A model generated the notes under the pieces. The model was not told the DNA's origin and ran no database searches. It worked only from the letters and a program-made list of their open reading frames with translations. A program made the translations under genes and the position numbers. From IMG/VR virus record IMGVR_UViG_3300020395_000141, positions 1-20,082 of that record: 20,082 bases of DNA. One strand, written 5' to 3'. This DNA comes from a virus. Below are positions 4,156 through 17,087 of the stretch, in pieces (position 1 is the first letter of the stretch; every line of letters begins with the position of its first letter).

Positions 4156-5133
4156 ATGGATTACGTTGACACTAGATTTATTGGTCTAGTATCATCACGC
4201 TTGAGTAAGTTTAAGAGGGTTAAACCTAACCTTTATAACTTCCGTTGCCCTATTTGCGGAGACTCTAAGAAGCATAAAAATAAAGCTAGAGGGTATCTAT
4301 ATGCCCAGAAGACACATACTAACTATAAGTGCCATAACTGTGGTGCTAGTTTGTCTTTTCATAATTTTCTCAAACAGATAGACGTTGTTCTGCACAAGCA
4401 GTACGTCATGGAAAAATTTCAGTCGGGTTACAACACCGAACAGGTTGTTGAACCCGATTTTAATTTTGAGAAACCAAAATTCAAACCTAAACCACTTGGT
4501 CTAGATCTACCAAAAGCAAGTACAAATGTTGCTGCTGTAACATACTTAGAAGGTAGAAAACTTGATCCGAATAAATTTTATTATGCGGAGAATTTCAAGA
4601 GGTGGACTAATACTCAAGTCCCTACTTTTGGACAGAGTGATTTAAAATATGATGAACCAAGGATTATTATTCCTTTGTATTATCAAAACAATCTAGTTGG
4701 ATTCCAAGGCAGAGCACTTGGTCCCAGCAAGATTAAATATATTACTATAATGATTGATGATGAAGCACCAAAGATCTACGGACTGGATAACATCAGAGGA
4801 GATGCTCCAGTCTTCGTTACAGAAGGACCGTTCGACAGCACGTTTCTTCGCAATAGCATCGCTATGTGCGGTGCAGACGGTGATGTTAGGAAGTGGGGTG
4901 TTAGCACTCCTGTTTGGGTTTATGATAACGAGCCAAGGAATAAGGAAATTACAGCAAGAATCTCCAAGTCCATCGACAGAGGTGCGTCCGTTGTCATCTT
5001 CCCAAACAATGTAAAACAAAAAGACATAAATGATATGGTATTAGCTGGGCATGATGTACAATCTGTGGTAGAATCTAATGTATATTCTGGTTTAGAAGCA
5101 AAACTTAAGTTCACATCTTGGAAGAGAATATGA
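4156..5133 (+). CDS. 61: DNA primase (T4 gp61-type), 325 aa
   Basis: Makes RNA primers for lagging-strand synthesis together with the gp41-type helicase. An N-terminal zinc finger is visible: Cys31 and Cys34 (CPICGDS) with Cys59 and Cys62 (CHNCG), the DnaG/gp61 template-recognition module. A TOPRIM-like catalytic core follows: Glu223 in VFVTEGPFDSTF and an acidic residue in VWVYDNEPRN (Asp259), then KQKDINDM. The length of 325 aa is close to that of T4 gp61 (about 340). The ATG at 4156 follows a sigma70-type promoter, which fits early or middle expression. It overlaps nrdA by 4 bases (ATGA), so primase and reductase are probably translated from one message. Confidence 0.85.
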   Translation: MDYVDTRFIGLVSSRLSKFKRVKPNLYNFRCPICGDSKKHKNKARGYLYAQKTHTNYKCHNCGASLSFHNFLKQIDVVLHKQYVMEKFQSGYNTEQVVEPDFNFEKPKFKPKPLGLDLPKASTNVAAVTYLEGRKLDPNKFYYAENFKRWTNTQVPTFGQSDLKYDEPRIIIPLYYQNNLVGFQGRALGPSKIKYITIMIDDEAPKIYGLDNIRGDAPVFVTEGPFDSTFLRNSIAMCGADGDVRKWGVSTPVWVYDNEPRNKEITARISKSIDRGASVVIFPNNVKQKDINDMVLAGHDVQSVVESNVYSGLEAKLKFTSWKRI

Positions 5134-9439: not shown

Positions 9440-9910
9440 ATGGAACCCACCACAAAGACCTCAAATAGTGAAGGAGATTATGAAAACCCCTGGATATATC
9501 AAGGTTCAACTTTCACTTCTGCTGATATTGGCGACTTCTTCGGTTACGTCTACTGCATTACAAATATCAAGAGCGGTAGGAAGTACATCGGTAGGAAGAA
9601 CTTCCAACAGCATCGAAAGCATAGAGGTAGCAGACGCAAACGGACGAGTGAGAGTAACTGGAAGGCATACTACGGAAGTTCTAAAGAACTTAACGAAGAC
9701 AGGAAACTTCTGGGGAATAGTACATTCAAAAGAGAAATCCTCGGACTCTATCAATCTCAAGGAAAAGTAAATTACGAAGAGACAAGACAGTTATTTTTAA
9801 ATAATGTTTTAACTGAGTCCCTTGATGATGGTACTCCTGCATATTACAACAGTAATGTATTAGGGAGATATTATAAAAAAGATTATTATGAAGGTTCAGG
9901 AGACACATGA
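9440..9910 (+). CDS. GIY-YIG-like endonuclease, 156 aa
   Basis: Residues 35-55 contain GYVYCITN, then SGRKYIGRKNF, a GIY-YIG nuclease core with the Arg after the second motif (Arg52). WKAYYGSSKEL, then FKREILGLY and Glu113 or Glu114 in NYEETRQLF follow, as in small phage nucleases. The catalysed reaction would be DNA strand cleavage; this type includes both homing (Seg-like) and repair-type enzymes. No DNA-binding C-terminal domain of the I-TevI kind is seen, so a free-standing nuclease is favoured. The ATG at 9440 is chosen; a frame from 9420 overlapping most of the gene has no meaningful protein. It overlaps the next gene by 23 bases. Confidence 0.7.
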   Translation: MEPTTKTSNSEGDYENPWIYQGSTFTSADIGDFFGYVYCITNIKSGRKYIGRKNFQQHRKHRGSRRKRTSESNWKAYYGSSKELNEDRKLLGNSTFKREILGLYQSQGKVNYEETRQLFLNNVLTESLDDGTPAYYNSNVLGRYYKKDYYEGSGDT

Positions 9911-10388
9911 CATTATAATTAAAGATTATCCATATGCAGATTCTATTGATGTAGATTACTTCCCTTTAACTAGAGAAGTATATAATGCTGATGGTGGACT
10001 TACAAATGTTAGAGCACTTCAGACTGAGGTATATTATGATGTAGTAGATCCTAATATTAAAAATCTTTTTGATTGGGCATTAGGATTTCTTCCACAGGCA
10101 GACATATCAACACATGAGGTTGACCACTATTGGATAGCAAAGTATAATAGAGGAGACTTCACAGTAAGTCATACTCATTATCCATGTCTTTATTCGTTTG
10201 TTTACTTTGTAAATTCTCCTAAAGGGTCTTCCCCATTAGTGTTTACAACCAGTAAGCAAAGTGTAGAATCAAAGAGTGGAAGGATTGTAATCTTTCCTGG
10301 ATTTTTAGAACACTATGTTCCTGAGAATCAATGTGATAATAGAGTTATTATTGCAGGAAATTCCTATTTTACAGGACATTTATTATGA
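9888..10388 (+). CDS. 2OG-Fe(II) oxygenase-like protein, 166 aa
   Basis: Double-stranded beta-helix protein. The candidate metal triad is His95 or His97 (VSHTHYP) and His142 (PGFLEHYVP), with Arg152 (DNRVIIAGN) as the 2-oxoglutarate anchor. The intervening strands (LYSFVYFVNSP, GRIVIFPG) fit the fold. The first motif reads HTH instead of the usual HxD, a variant also seen in phage relatives annotated as 2OG oxygenases. The substrate is unknown. The start at 9888 lies inside the nuclease gene; no better in-frame start exists. It overlaps the next gene by 4 bases. Confidence 0.6.
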   Translation: MKVQETHDIIIKDYPYADSIDVDYFPLTREVYNADGGLTNVRALQTEVYYDVVDPNIKNLFDWALGFLPQADISTHEVDHYWIAKYNRGDFTVSHTHYPCLYSFVYFVNSPKGSSPLVFTTSKQSVESKSGRIVIFPGFLEHYVPENQCDNRVIIAGNSYFTGHLL

Positions 10389-11349: not shown

Positions 11350-11682
11350 ATGGACTTAGACAAGAACCAAGGTATTAAGCATGTTAATAGGAATGACCTA
11401 GGAGATTTTGGTGCAGATAATGTATCTGGGTTTATGGATTACATTGCCCAACAGGTAGGGGATGATGAGAATTCAATCTTACCTGCTGTAATGCAAAAAA
11501 ATACTGAGTCGATGGCATTGTATAATATGTCAAGAGCTCATCGTGAGAATTTAGATATTGTTACAGGTGCTCCTACCAAAGGATATAACAATAATAATTT
11601 TGACGACTATGATGATGATCCTAAGTTTGAGAAGAAGAAACCAAACCAACTCTTCTCAGATCATTACACACCTAAGAGGTAG
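11350..11682 (+). CDS. Hypothetical protein, 110 aa
   Basis: Not recognised. The N-terminal two thirds are helical (LGDFGADNVSGFMDYIAQQV, NTESMALYNMSRAHRENLDI). The last third is low complexity, with NNNNFDDYDDDP followed by KFEKKKPNQ, and probably disordered. It begins 5 bases after the hydrolase stop. Its TAG stop is followed immediately by the -35 box of a strong promoter, so a new transcription unit starts here. Function unknown. Confidence 0.65.
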   Translation: MDLDKNQGIKHVNRNDLGDFGADNVSGFMDYIAQQVGDDENSILPAVMQKNTESMALYNMSRAHRENLDIVTGAPTKGYNNNNFDDYDDDPKFEKKKPNQLFSDHYTPKR

Positions 11683-11711
11683 TTGACAAGTGGTAGTCAC
11701 TCATGTATAAT
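11683..11711 (+). promoter_or_regulatory. Consensus sigma70 promoter
   Basis: TTGACA (11683-11688), a 17-base spacer, and TATAAT (11706-11711): perfect matches at both boxes with ideal spacing. The start of transcription is expected near 11718. This is the strongest host-type promoter in the window and should be used by the cyanobacterial RNA polymerase right after infection. It points into the structured non-coding stretch that follows. Confidence 0.85.
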
Positions 11712-11748
11712 ACCTTTGTTGCAACGGCGGTTGTGACAGGGAGTGACT
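11695..11748 (+). repeat. 8-base inverted repeat flanking the -10 box and start site
   Basis: AGTCACTC at 11695-11702, in the promoter spacer, is the exact reverse complement of GAGTGACT at 11741-11748. The 38 bases between hold the -10 box and the predicted start. The arms could be paired operator half sites bringing a repressor to both sides of the promoter. Confidence 0.45.
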
Positions 11749-11935
11749 GAATAATCTTTCTGGCATATAGCTGGATAAGGTGATGAGACACAGGTGGTGC
11801 TGCTGGTTCTAGTGAACCAGAATCGACTTACCAGTCGGGTCTCAGGCAGGGATGTAATCTTACTTACTGTAGTAATGCCCGTCTCTTGTTGGTAATACAG
11901 GAATCCAACCTCCCACCTTTACTATTTTAAAAGCG
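11718..11935 (+). ncRNA. Putative structured RNA or 5' regulatory leader
   Basis: About 215 bases downstream of the consensus promoter contain no plausible gene but many perfect stems. CTGGTTC (11803-11809) pairs with GAACCAG (11814-11820) around a TAGT loop. CGACT (11824-11828) pairs with AGTCG (11833-11837). TGAGAC (11784-11789) and GTCTCA (11839-11844) enclose both. TTACT (11860-11864) pairs with AGTAA (11871-11875), flanked by GGCA/TGCC (11845-11848, 11876-11879). GTTGG (11888-11892) pairs with CCAAC (11905-11909). A small CAAC/GTTG hairpin lies near the 5' end (11722-11733). AGGTGG (11792-11797) can also pair with CCACCT (11913-11918), an alternative to the first set. No tRNA, tmRNA or RNase P signature was found. 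Whether it is a free RNA or the leader of the 11936 gene is open: no terminator is obvious before that ATG. Confidence 0.55.
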
Positions 11936-12148
11936 ATGGTTACTAAAACTGAGTTGATACATTGGAGACTACAAGCAGTATTGAGAGAGCATAGTTTCCC
12001 AGATTTAGAATACATCGGAGAGAGACCAAGTTATAAGACAGGTGATAATGTTCCTTGGTATCGTATAGGAAAAGCAGAAGTTCCTATTGATGCTATAACA
12101 GAATTTGAATGTGAGGAAGATGAAGATGGATCAGAGGATACCGAGTAA
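11936..12148 (+). CDS. Small acidic hypothetical protein, 70 aa
   Basis: First gene after the structured leader. Contains LIHWRLQAVLREHSFPDLEY, WYRIGKAEVPIDAITEFE, and an acidic tail (CEEDEDGSEDTE). No family recognised. The start ATG at 11936 has no strong Shine-Dalgarno site, so its translation could depend on the leader structure. It overlaps the cupin gene by about 23 bases. Confidence 0.6.
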   Translation: MVTKTELIHWRLQAVLREHSFPDLEYIGERPSYKTGDNVPWYRIGKAEVPIDAITEFECEEDEDGSEDTE

Positions 12149-13573: not shown

Positions 13574-14161
13574 ATGTTTATTAACGAAGCAACTAAAATA
13601 GATACCAGTATATTTACAGATAATCTAGAACAGATTAAGAAGGATTATATTAGGTTTAGGGATAGGCAATACTTCTTTGACTATTCTCATACTTATAATC
13701 TTACTGCTAATGCTGGAGACTTCTCTGATTTTGTTCCAACACAGACTGGATATAAGTGGCAAGTATGTCCTATGATTTTTAATCGCTATGCGATTAGGGT
13801 TGTACCTTTAGAGATAAGACAGTCTTTTACAACTGATCTTTTATTAGCACAAGAAATAAAACCAGTTCTTGCTGTGTTCTCTATACTAGAATCAGGGGCA
13901 GAGTTAGATCCACATTCTGATGGTGATAAGAGAATAGATCCACAGTATTGGGATTCTACTGTATATAAATTCCACTTTGCTTTAGATGTACCAGAGGATG
14001 GTGATAGTGGATTAGTATGTGGAGGTGAGACAAGATTATTAAAGAATGGAGATCTTAATATATTTGATGAGGAAGGAGAACATTATGCATATAATAGAAG
14101 TACTGGTAGAAGAGGAGTTCTGATAGTCTCCTACATAAAAGCTGAGATTGACAAGGGTTAA
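13574..14161 (+). CDS. Aspartyl/asparaginyl beta-hydroxylase-like 2OG oxygenase, 195 aa
   Basis: Matches the Asp/Asn beta-hydroxylase family of 2OG-Fe(II) enzymes. ELDPHSDGDKR (His114-x-Asp116) and GEHYAYNRSTGRRGVLIVSY (His170, with Arg179 or Arg180 as the 2-oxoglutarate anchor) supply the facial triad and co-substrate site. The strand YKFHFALDVPEDG and the loop VCGGETRLLKNGDLNIFDEE lie in family order. The length is typical of the free-standing catalytic domain. The substrate is unknown; family members hydroxylate Asp/Asn in proteins or small molecules such as siderophore precursors. The promoter of the next unit lies within its last codons. Confidence 0.75.
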   Translation: MFINEATKIDTSIFTDNLEQIKKDYIRFRDRQYFFDYSHTYNLTANAGDFSDFVPTQTGYKWQVCPMIFNRYAIRVVPLEIRQSFTTDLLLAQEIKPVLAVFSILESGAELDPHSDGDKRIDPQYWDSTVYKFHFALDVPEDGDSGLVCGGETRLLKNGDLNIFDEEGEHYAYNRSTGRRGVLIVSYIKAEIDKG

Positions 14162-14176: not shown

Positions 14177-14193
14177 ACTTGTAATTGAATGAT

Positions 14194-14802
14194 ATGATGG
14201 AACCACATAACGTTACAGATCATGCTGCTTGGTACTTTGTTGAGAAAGTACCTGATAAGTTAGTTGATATCATGGTTGAAGAACTTGAAGAGATGGAGAG
14301 GGATAGAGTTCCTTTTGAAGATGCTGGTGTAGGTGGTGATTTACATGGAAGAAATGATCGTGCGGTAAGAAATTCAAAGGTACAATGGTGGTATGAAGAT
14401 CATTGGGCATGTAGTTTGATGTCTCATTATATTGGAATTGCAAATAGAAGAAATTGGGAATATGATTTAAATCTGTTAGAGAGTATTCAGATCTCTGTTT
14501 ACCTAGGAAAAGATCAAGGTGGTGGAGAAGGTGGTCACTATGGATGGCATAGTGATTATGGTACATCTAAGAGAGGAGATTGGACACGTAAATTAAGTGC
14601 AAGTCTTTTAGTCTCAGACCCAAGTGAATATGAGGGTGGAGATCTTATACTATTAGACTATCATAATAACGAAGTTAAAATGCCTAAAGAGAAGGGTTCA
14701 ATAATTGTTTTTGATTCTAGACTTCCGCATAAAGTTACTCCTGTAACTACTGGTAGAAGAGTGTCTTTAGTAACTTGGATGTATGGTCCTAAGTTGAGAT
14801 GA
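14194..14802 (+). CDS. 2OG-Fe(II) oxygenase, PKHD/prolyl hydroxylase-like, 202 aa
   Basis: A clear oxygenase of the prolyl 4-hydroxylase superfamily. The triad is GWHSDYG (His119, Asp121) and RLPHKVTP (His179), with Arg188 or Arg189 in TGRRVSLVTWMYGP as the 2-oxoglutarate anchor. The core strands RKLSASLLVSDPSEYEGGDL and GSIIVFDSRLPHK are very typical of PKHD-type hydroxylases. The ATG at 14194 is preferred; a TTG at 14185 and an ATG at 14197 are alternatives. The early promoter start maps about 10 bases upstream. It overlaps the next gene by 4 bases. The substrate is unknown. Confidence 0.85.
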   Translation: MMEPHNVTDHAAWYFVEKVPDKLVDIMVEELEEMERDRVPFEDAGVGGDLHGRNDRAVRNSKVQWWYEDHWACSLMSHYIGIANRRNWEYDLNLLESIQISVYLGKDQGGGEGGHYGWHSDYGTSKRGDWTRKLSASLLVSDPSEYEGGDLILLDYHNNEVKMPKEKGSIIVFDSRLPHKVTPVTTGRRVSLVTWMYGPKLR

Positions 14803-16239: not shown

Positions 16240-16455
16240 ATGACTCTCACAACTAAGTTCAAGAAGGACCTAAGCACATTACGTGCTGCTGTAAACAAAG
16301 AAATTTACTTAGATGTTAAAAATCCAAAACTGTATAAAAAGATTAGACGTTATTATCAGAATGAGTTAGAGTTCACAGGGGAAGATCCTGAAAGAGAATA
16401 CACTTCAATCATGGAGTGTATTGCTGAAGATTTACAATCGGTTGAAGTTACGTGA
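16240..16455 (+). CDS. Small charged hypothetical protein, 71 aa
   Basis: The ATG at 16240 is preferred because a TTG at 16219 would lie at the expected transcription start. The protein (FKKDLSTLRAAVNKEIYLDV, then NPKLYKKIRRYYQNEL) is helical and basic in its first half and acidic in its second. It looks like a small protein found in several cyanophages next to oxygenase genes, from memory only. Its stop overlaps the next gene's GTG start (GTGA). Function unknown. Confidence 0.65.
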   Translation: MTLTTKFKKDLSTLRAAVNKEIYLDVKNPKLYKKIRRYYQNELEFTGEDPEREYTSIMECIAEDLQSVEVT

Positions 16456-17087
16456 TTAGGAAAGTTAGATTGACACATGAAAATGAAGAGGGGGTTGTTA
16501 TAAAACCCTCTGTCTTTTTAAAACAAGATTTTATTGGTGTCTGGGATGATGTATTCCCAGATAACTTTTGTGAGTTTATAAAGAACTACGTAGATACTAG
16601 TTCATATCTTGCTGGTCGAGACACACCTTACGTACAAGATAAACAAATTTGCATATCTGCATTTTCTCCAGCAGAAGCAGACTATTGTATGGAAGGGGTT
16701 AATCATTGTTTAAAGCAATATATCAATTGGTATCCATATTTAAAAAACTTTAGTTATCATAGTAGTTTGTGTCTATTACAAAAGACAGAACCATTACAAG
16801 GTTATCATCCATTTCATTGTGAAGATACTACATGGGATGCTGTTCAAAGAACTTTAGCATGGATGGTATATTTTAATGATGTTGATGAAGGTGGTGAGAC
16901 TGAATGGTTATACCAACAATTAAAGATACAACCTAAAGCAGGTAGAGTTGTAATTTGGCCAGGTGCATTTACACATTTGCATAGAGGTAATCCACCAATG
17001 AGTGATAAGTATATTGCGACTGGATGGTATGTGTCCAGTCAGGGGATGTATGAACATGAAGTCAGTAGTCAAGATCCCCCATCTTGA
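16452..17087 (+). CDS. 2OG-Fe(II) oxygenase-like protein with HxE variant, 211 aa
   Basis: The GTG start at 16452 is coupled to the upstream stop. The core GYHPFHCEDTTWDA, LAWMVYFNDVDEGGETEWLY, GRVVIWPGAFTHLHRGNPP and KYIATGWY is that of a common cyanophage oxygenase family. The first metal pair reads His122-x-Glu124 instead of HxD; His175 is the distal ligand. The 2-oxoglutarate anchor is not the usual Arg on the last strand: Lys186 or Arg178 may replace it. Glu can serve as an iron ligand, so the protein may still be active. It overlaps the radical SAM gene by 38 bases, which suggests strict co-expression. Confidence 0.7.
   Translation: MIRKVRLTHENEEGVVIKPSVFLKQDFIGVWDDVFPDNFCEFIKNYVDTSSYLAGRDTPYVQDKQICISAFSPAEADYCMEGVNHCLKQYINWYPYLKNFSYHSSLCLLQKTEPLQGYHPFHCEDTTWDAVQRTLAWMVYFNDVDEGGETEWLYQQLKIQPKAGRVVIWPGAFTHLHRGNPPMSDKYIATGWYVSSQGMYEHEVSSQDPPS

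Follow-up and report, generated by a model that had tools for sequence, protein, structure and literature searches.

The window examined here, a 20,082-base virus record analysed at its full length, contains one copy of the manA RNA (Rfam RF01745) at 11720-11919 on the plus strand, immediately behind a perfect sigma-70-type promoter. A survey of some ninety copies of this RNA suggests that each virus carries a single manA, nearly always with a promoter of its own and whatever gene comes next. The reading preferred here, to which about even odds (roughly 0.5) are given, is that manA may be a self-contained, promoter-driven phage RNA unit, acting in its own right rather than as a switch for the next gene. 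What the sequences show directly is membership of the family, the fold, a promoter consensus that is conserved, a single copy in each record, and neighbours that change; that manA is transcribed at all, that it works independently of the next gene, and what its target might be are inferences.

Comparison of the whole window with Rfam 15 (cmscan) gave one match, to manA, with 175.7 bits against a gathering cut-off of 55.2 (E 1e-47), covering model positions 1-192, the full length of the model. All of the family helices are formed in the window copy, without a single non-standard pair in the alignment to the consensus. An earlier sequence-only reading of this DNA had found no named RNA to which the element could be matched; this was wrong, as it belongs to an already described family. 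The manA family was published from marine metagenomes and T4-like cyanophages and rated as certainly an RNA, cis-regulatory, and probably a riboswitch (“cis-regulatory Y, riboswitch y”), with one of its pairings marked “pseudoknot?” (Weinberg et al., 2010; PMC2864571). Its Rfam type is also cis-regulatory. Release 14.3 of Rfam brought a corrected model, the structure from the source alignment having 48 significantly covarying pairs (PMC7779021), and cyanophage S-CREM1 is among the other reported carriers (PMC9964418). A literature search, reaching few subscription journals, found no published ligand or functional test for manA; an RNA-seq paper on P-HM2 infection counted intergenic reads and did not discuss the manA RNA.

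The window includes nrdA and nrdB (ribonucleotide reductase), a gene for a SegE-like endonuclease, and several for 2OG-Fe(II) oxygenases, a content that points to part of a T4-like cyanophage genome. The promoter is preceded by a plus-strand ORF of 110 aa without an assigned family (11350-11682), whose stop codon abuts it; 16 nt past the RNA begins a plus-strand ORF of 70 aa (11936-12148) belonging to phrog_2020, annotated as of unknown function. The stretch between had been described as holding no credible gene, and indeed there is no plus-strand ORF of at least 40 aa within 11712-11935, while on the minus strand only a 51-aa ORF (11860-12015) overlaps it. No tRNA or tmRNA was found in the window. 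Elsewhere in the window, four 2OG-Fe(II) oxygenase or Asp/Asn hydroxylase-like genes fall within one 7-kb stretch (9888-10388, 13574-14161, 14185-14802, and 16452-17087); several adjacent genes of about the same size lack a Pfam match and may encode divergent oxygenases. A radical SAM protein (PF04055, 17002-17859) is encoded among them, overlapping one, and together these genes could possibly form a peptide- or sugar-modifying cluster. A HAD-type phosphomannomutase-like gene (PF03332, 8714-9418) lies behind nrdA and nrdB; by sequence inspection, phosphomannomutase-like genes are also found directly behind manA in three other contigs (L025, L026, and L117).

The RNA opens with a 5′ hairpin of variable sequence (11720-11725 with 11730-11735), followed by one strand of the closing helix P1, GGGAG/CUCCC (11739-11743 with 11910-11914). 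Within P1 are a hairpin at 11759-11775; a multibranch arm, closed by an enclosing helix (11784-11789 with 11839-11844) and containing hairpins at 11791-11802, 11803-11820, and 11823-11838; an outer helix (11848-11854 with 11880-11886) carrying an inner hairpin (11860-11863 with 11872-11875); and a 3′ hairpin stacked on P1 (11888-11892 with 11905-11909). All are parts of the Rfam structure and on the plus strand. The five stems picked out in the sequence-only reading are real, and all belong to this fold; missed were the hairpins at 11720-11735 and 11759-11775, P1, and the outer helix at 11848-11886.

For a single sequence, the predicted folding energy is only mildly low (z -1.56, with 11 of 200 shuffles as good), so folding alone is no proof of a structured RNA; the covariance-model score provides that, and covariation among relatives confirms it. 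Seventy-one mutually different copies were aligned without fitting to any structure, and the pairs of the Rfam fold counted. Two-sided changes occur at 37 of its 55 pairs, and 91.7% of cells pair, falling to 33-49% when the partners are slid by one to three columns. Covariation amounts to 441 cells versus 138 in shuffles, and none of 500 shuffles, which ignore relatedness, reaches the observed value for any of five measures. P1 and the 3′ hairpin are paired in 100% of copies, with compensatory versions of P1 (GGGTG/CACCC and AGGAG/CTCCT) and two-sided changes at three of the five 3′ hairpin pairs; the enclosing helix of the multibranch arm is 99% paired (two-sided changes at five of six pairs) and the outer helix 98.6% (seven of seven). 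The 5′ hairpin has two-sided changes at all six pairs, and the inner hairpin of the outer helix is poorly aligned (61.8%). Several unpaired stretches, for example GUGACUGAAUAA and GGUGAUGAG, are invariant. Absence of covariation in homologues had been set beforehand as a result that would count against a structured RNA; the comparison came out in favour of structure, and with the family score and the conserved promoter described below it strongly supports the earlier proposal of a promoter-driven structured RNA. A further proposal, that AGGTGG and CCACCT might pair to give a competing fold, fared less well: the letters are present in the window, but their conservation is at chance level, with all six pairs possible in three of 71 copies and a covariation of 0.085 against a shuffled mean of 0.088.

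The promoter, TTGACA-17-TATAAT at 11683-11711 on the plus strand, had been recognized from the letters alone, and is the only 12/12 consensus match in the window. Transcription is predicted to start at about 11718-11720, a start 5-15 nt past the TATAAT being expected; with the promoter so close to the RNA, the 5′ end of the transcript is expected at the 5′ hairpin itself or slightly ahead of it. For comparison, the best sigma-70 match just before the RNA was scored in 91 copies, no two of them more than 95% identical. A predicted promoter matching the consensus in at least 11 of 12 bases stands directly before manA in 83 of the 91, compared to 0.8% of random stretches from the same contigs and 3.1% of the stretches before 523 other ORFs. 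Among named phages, 12 of 14 have 11 or 12 of the 12 promoter bases in this position. Conservation to this degree argues that the promoter belongs to the conserved unit.

A blastn search with the window copy returned 39 phage records, all from cyanophages or marine viruses, and one with the more divergent P-TIM40 copy a further eight. By comparison, 497 records encode a major capsid protein of the T4-like kind that is close to the one in cyanophage P-RSM4; the 47 manA-bearing records are a lower bound on what is a minority of these. Searching 30 viral records with the family model gave exactly one copy in each; among these records are 17 named phage genomes (16 named isolates and one assembled genome, metaG-MbCM1). 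The manA contigs were drawn from among the matches listed for exact 19- and 22-base patterns from the conserved core, at least 120 for each. A search for bacterial copies with an 18-base pattern yielded six contigs (Methylophaga, Methylophilus, Domibacillus, and Arenicellaceae), none with a manA match and therefore chance hits; a search of plasmids gave no match.

The position of manA varies considerably among phages. It follows gp23, encoding the major capsid protein, in P-RSM4, S-TIM4, S-SSM5, P-HM1, MED4-213, P-RSM1, and metaG-MbCM1 (annotated there as a gp24 precursor gene); it follows pstS in P-SSM3, P-SSM4, and S-SSM4 and a ferredoxin gene in P-SSM7, and in P-SSM2 it lies between regA and purL. 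It precedes gp32 in P-HM2, talC in P-RSM6 and P-TIM40, and a tRNA-Gly gene in S-SSM7. The manA coordinates are 4771-4969 in P-HM2, 142837-143034 in P-SSM2, and 169071-169265 in P-TIM40. With ORFs and terminators called mechanically, the next ORFs of 92 sampled copies form 39 clusters, of which gp32 (19 copies) and talC (11) are the largest, their families having been assigned by inspection and from annotated relatives; the preceding ORFs of 84 copies fall into 50. Diversity is somewhat lower among the downstream neighbours than among those upstream (Simpson index 0.061 vs. 0.030), mostly due to gp32 and talC. Homologues of the phrog_2020 ORF are found in P-SSM2, P-HM1, P-HM2, MED4-213, P-TIM68, and S-SSM7, all of which carry manA, each far from it.

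The closest comparison to the window is a syntenic contig (L004), with 81-86% identity extending as far as the RNA's end and a manA that is 97% identical. In L004, some 490 bases with a different ORF separate manA from the phrog_2020 homologue (4250-4740, corresponding to 11916-11967 in the window). An ORF has been gained or lost exactly at the 3′ border of manA; the RNA is better preserved than the sequence around it, although the gene behind it has been exchanged.

The 3′ side of manA is also variable. Of the 92 sampled copies, 14 are followed by a conserved hairpin, 13 by another intrinsic terminator, eight by a tRNA gene, 17 by a T-run only, and one by a glutamine-riboswitch-like element; the remaining 39, the window copy included, have none of these. 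A terminator of its own, as might be expected of a small RNA gene, is thus present as a hairpin or intrinsic terminator in 27 of the 92, with a T-run alone in 17 more. No terminator-like site was found between the RNA and the phrog_2020 ORF in the window, so that this ORF probably shares a transcript with manA, whose RNA would then also be the 5′ leader of the phrog_2020 mRNA.

The conserved hairpin, GACCUAAGAUGCAACUC...GAGUCGGGCAGAUGGUC, occurs in one lineage (for example L038:1155-1191, L052:2898-2934, and L085:1124-1159, and in some 110 further contigs). Scanning 2.9 million viral contigs located it at 114 places, 112 of them within 100 nt behind manA; the remaining two sit at the ends of their contigs, where one still shows the tail of manA. 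The distance from the manA model to the start of the hairpin is 5-15 nt (median 7), and U-runs usually flank the hairpin, before it in 104 of 117 cases and behind it in 68 of 117. Two copies have a G-C to A-T change at the base of the hairpin. It has no match in Rfam; a kink-turn was considered by eye, but the strands fit uncleanly and the idea was dropped. Where tRNA genes follow, they can be very close: tRNA-Asn genes (L031, L144, L082, L006, L046, and L133) and tRNA-Gly or unnamed tRNA genes (L077, L021, and L045) lie within a few bases of the manA end, and that of S-SSM7 (L269) all but touches it. A manA transcript with a tRNA gene starting at its end would require processing to separate the two.

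The conserved promoter, the single copy, the freely changing next gene, and, in one lineage, the companion hairpin are what indirectly favour a self-contained RNA. In outline, a host-type RNA polymerase would start at the sigma-70 promoter immediately before manA, early in infection; with the promoter right in front, the transcript would begin with manA's own 5′ hairpin, and the RNA would fold into a multibranched structure closed by P1. Kept as one copy per genome with its own promoter, manA would act as an RNA in its own right, its transcript stopping at a terminator in certain phages and continuing into the following gene in the rest. A more specific version, in which manA is an autonomous, position-shifting early RNA that works in trans on the machinery of the host or of the phage, from one promoter-driven copy and with a dedicated 3′ hairpin-terminator in one lineage, is put forward tentatively, at rather less than even odds. 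Three features count against a self-contained unit: the 39 copies without terminator, tRNA gene, or T-run look like leaders, the genes downstream are slightly less varied than those upstream, and variable terminators behind an aptamer also resemble the expression platforms of riboswitches.

The published assignment (Weinberg et al., 2010; PMC2864571) leads to the most serious alternative, a cis-acting riboswitch or protein-sensing leader that would respond to a metabolite or factor changing during infection and control the next gene, either by closure of P1 followed by a U-run or terminator, or at the level of translation. The next gene is often within 8-50 nt, gp32 and talC recur downstream, and 33 of 92 copies have a T-run immediately after P1, compared with 5% of random positions; a riboswitch would also be compatible with variable terminators and with many target genes, and 39 copies resemble plain leaders. 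A consistent link to the genes of one pathway is not seen, however, given the 39 downstream clusters among 92 copies; the single copy per genome stands before unrelated genes, a tRNA gene comes next in eight copies, and between L004 and the window the next gene was swapped while the RNA stayed. Some known signalling-molecule riboswitches also precede diverse genes. Nor is an expression platform able to exclude the aptamer fold, or to be excluded by it, evident in the window, where P1 ends 21 nt ahead of the start codon, clear of any evident ribosome site; in 13 other copies, terminator arms show no excess complementarity to manA of the antiterminator type (p 0.19, n = 13, a weak test). Overall, a riboswitch or sensing leader is considered a substantial possibility, short of an even chance.

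It is improbable, on the other hand, that manA is a general leader cassette, a strong promoter with a stable 5′ structure that protects and insulates any phage mRNA behind it without sensing and without a role in trans. Promoter and RNA do occur together, with many different genes behind them and, in the window, without a terminator, all of which such a cassette would explain; but the invariant unpaired stretches far exceed what stability would need, one copy per genome would be odd for a general cassette, and a third of copies have terminators or tRNA genes behind them. Finally, a chance promoter next to chance stems in an intergenic gap, to which the unremarkable single-sequence folding energy might have pointed, is refuted by the match to the curated family, the covariation, and the conservation of the promoter.

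In itself the window copy is ordinary for its family, and the survey of copies matters more. The fixed promoter, the single copy, the loose tie to the next gene, and the companion hairpin of other phages are absent from the published accounts of manA that were found. Since 2010 manA has been an orphan riboswitch candidate, with its gene links (mannose, nucleotides, chaperones, photosynthesis) taken as clues to a ligand. If these genes are only bystanders of a mobile, self-promoted RNA, searching for a ligand among them is misguided, and cyanophages would possess their own abundant small RNA, with transcript ends predicted by the conserved promoter and the companion 3′ hairpin.

Compared with the manA family as described, the window copy shows no departure: it has the same helices, the same kind of host (cyanophage, marine), and the same position between genes. 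The wcaG RNA (RF01761) is likewise structured and known from marine metagenomes and T4-like cyanophages, and was treated alongside manA (PMC2864571); both are present in phage S-CREM1 (PMC9964418), but wcaG is a different family, without a match in the window. The glutamine riboswitches (RF01739 and RF01704) are also structured RNAs of cyanophages, sometimes only a few hundred bases from manA, as on both sides of it in one contig (L072:1194-1242 and 1707-1803) and in another at L023:312-360; they differ from manA in structure and in having a known ligand, and are absent from the window. It seems that manA tends to cluster with small RNAs of other kinds.
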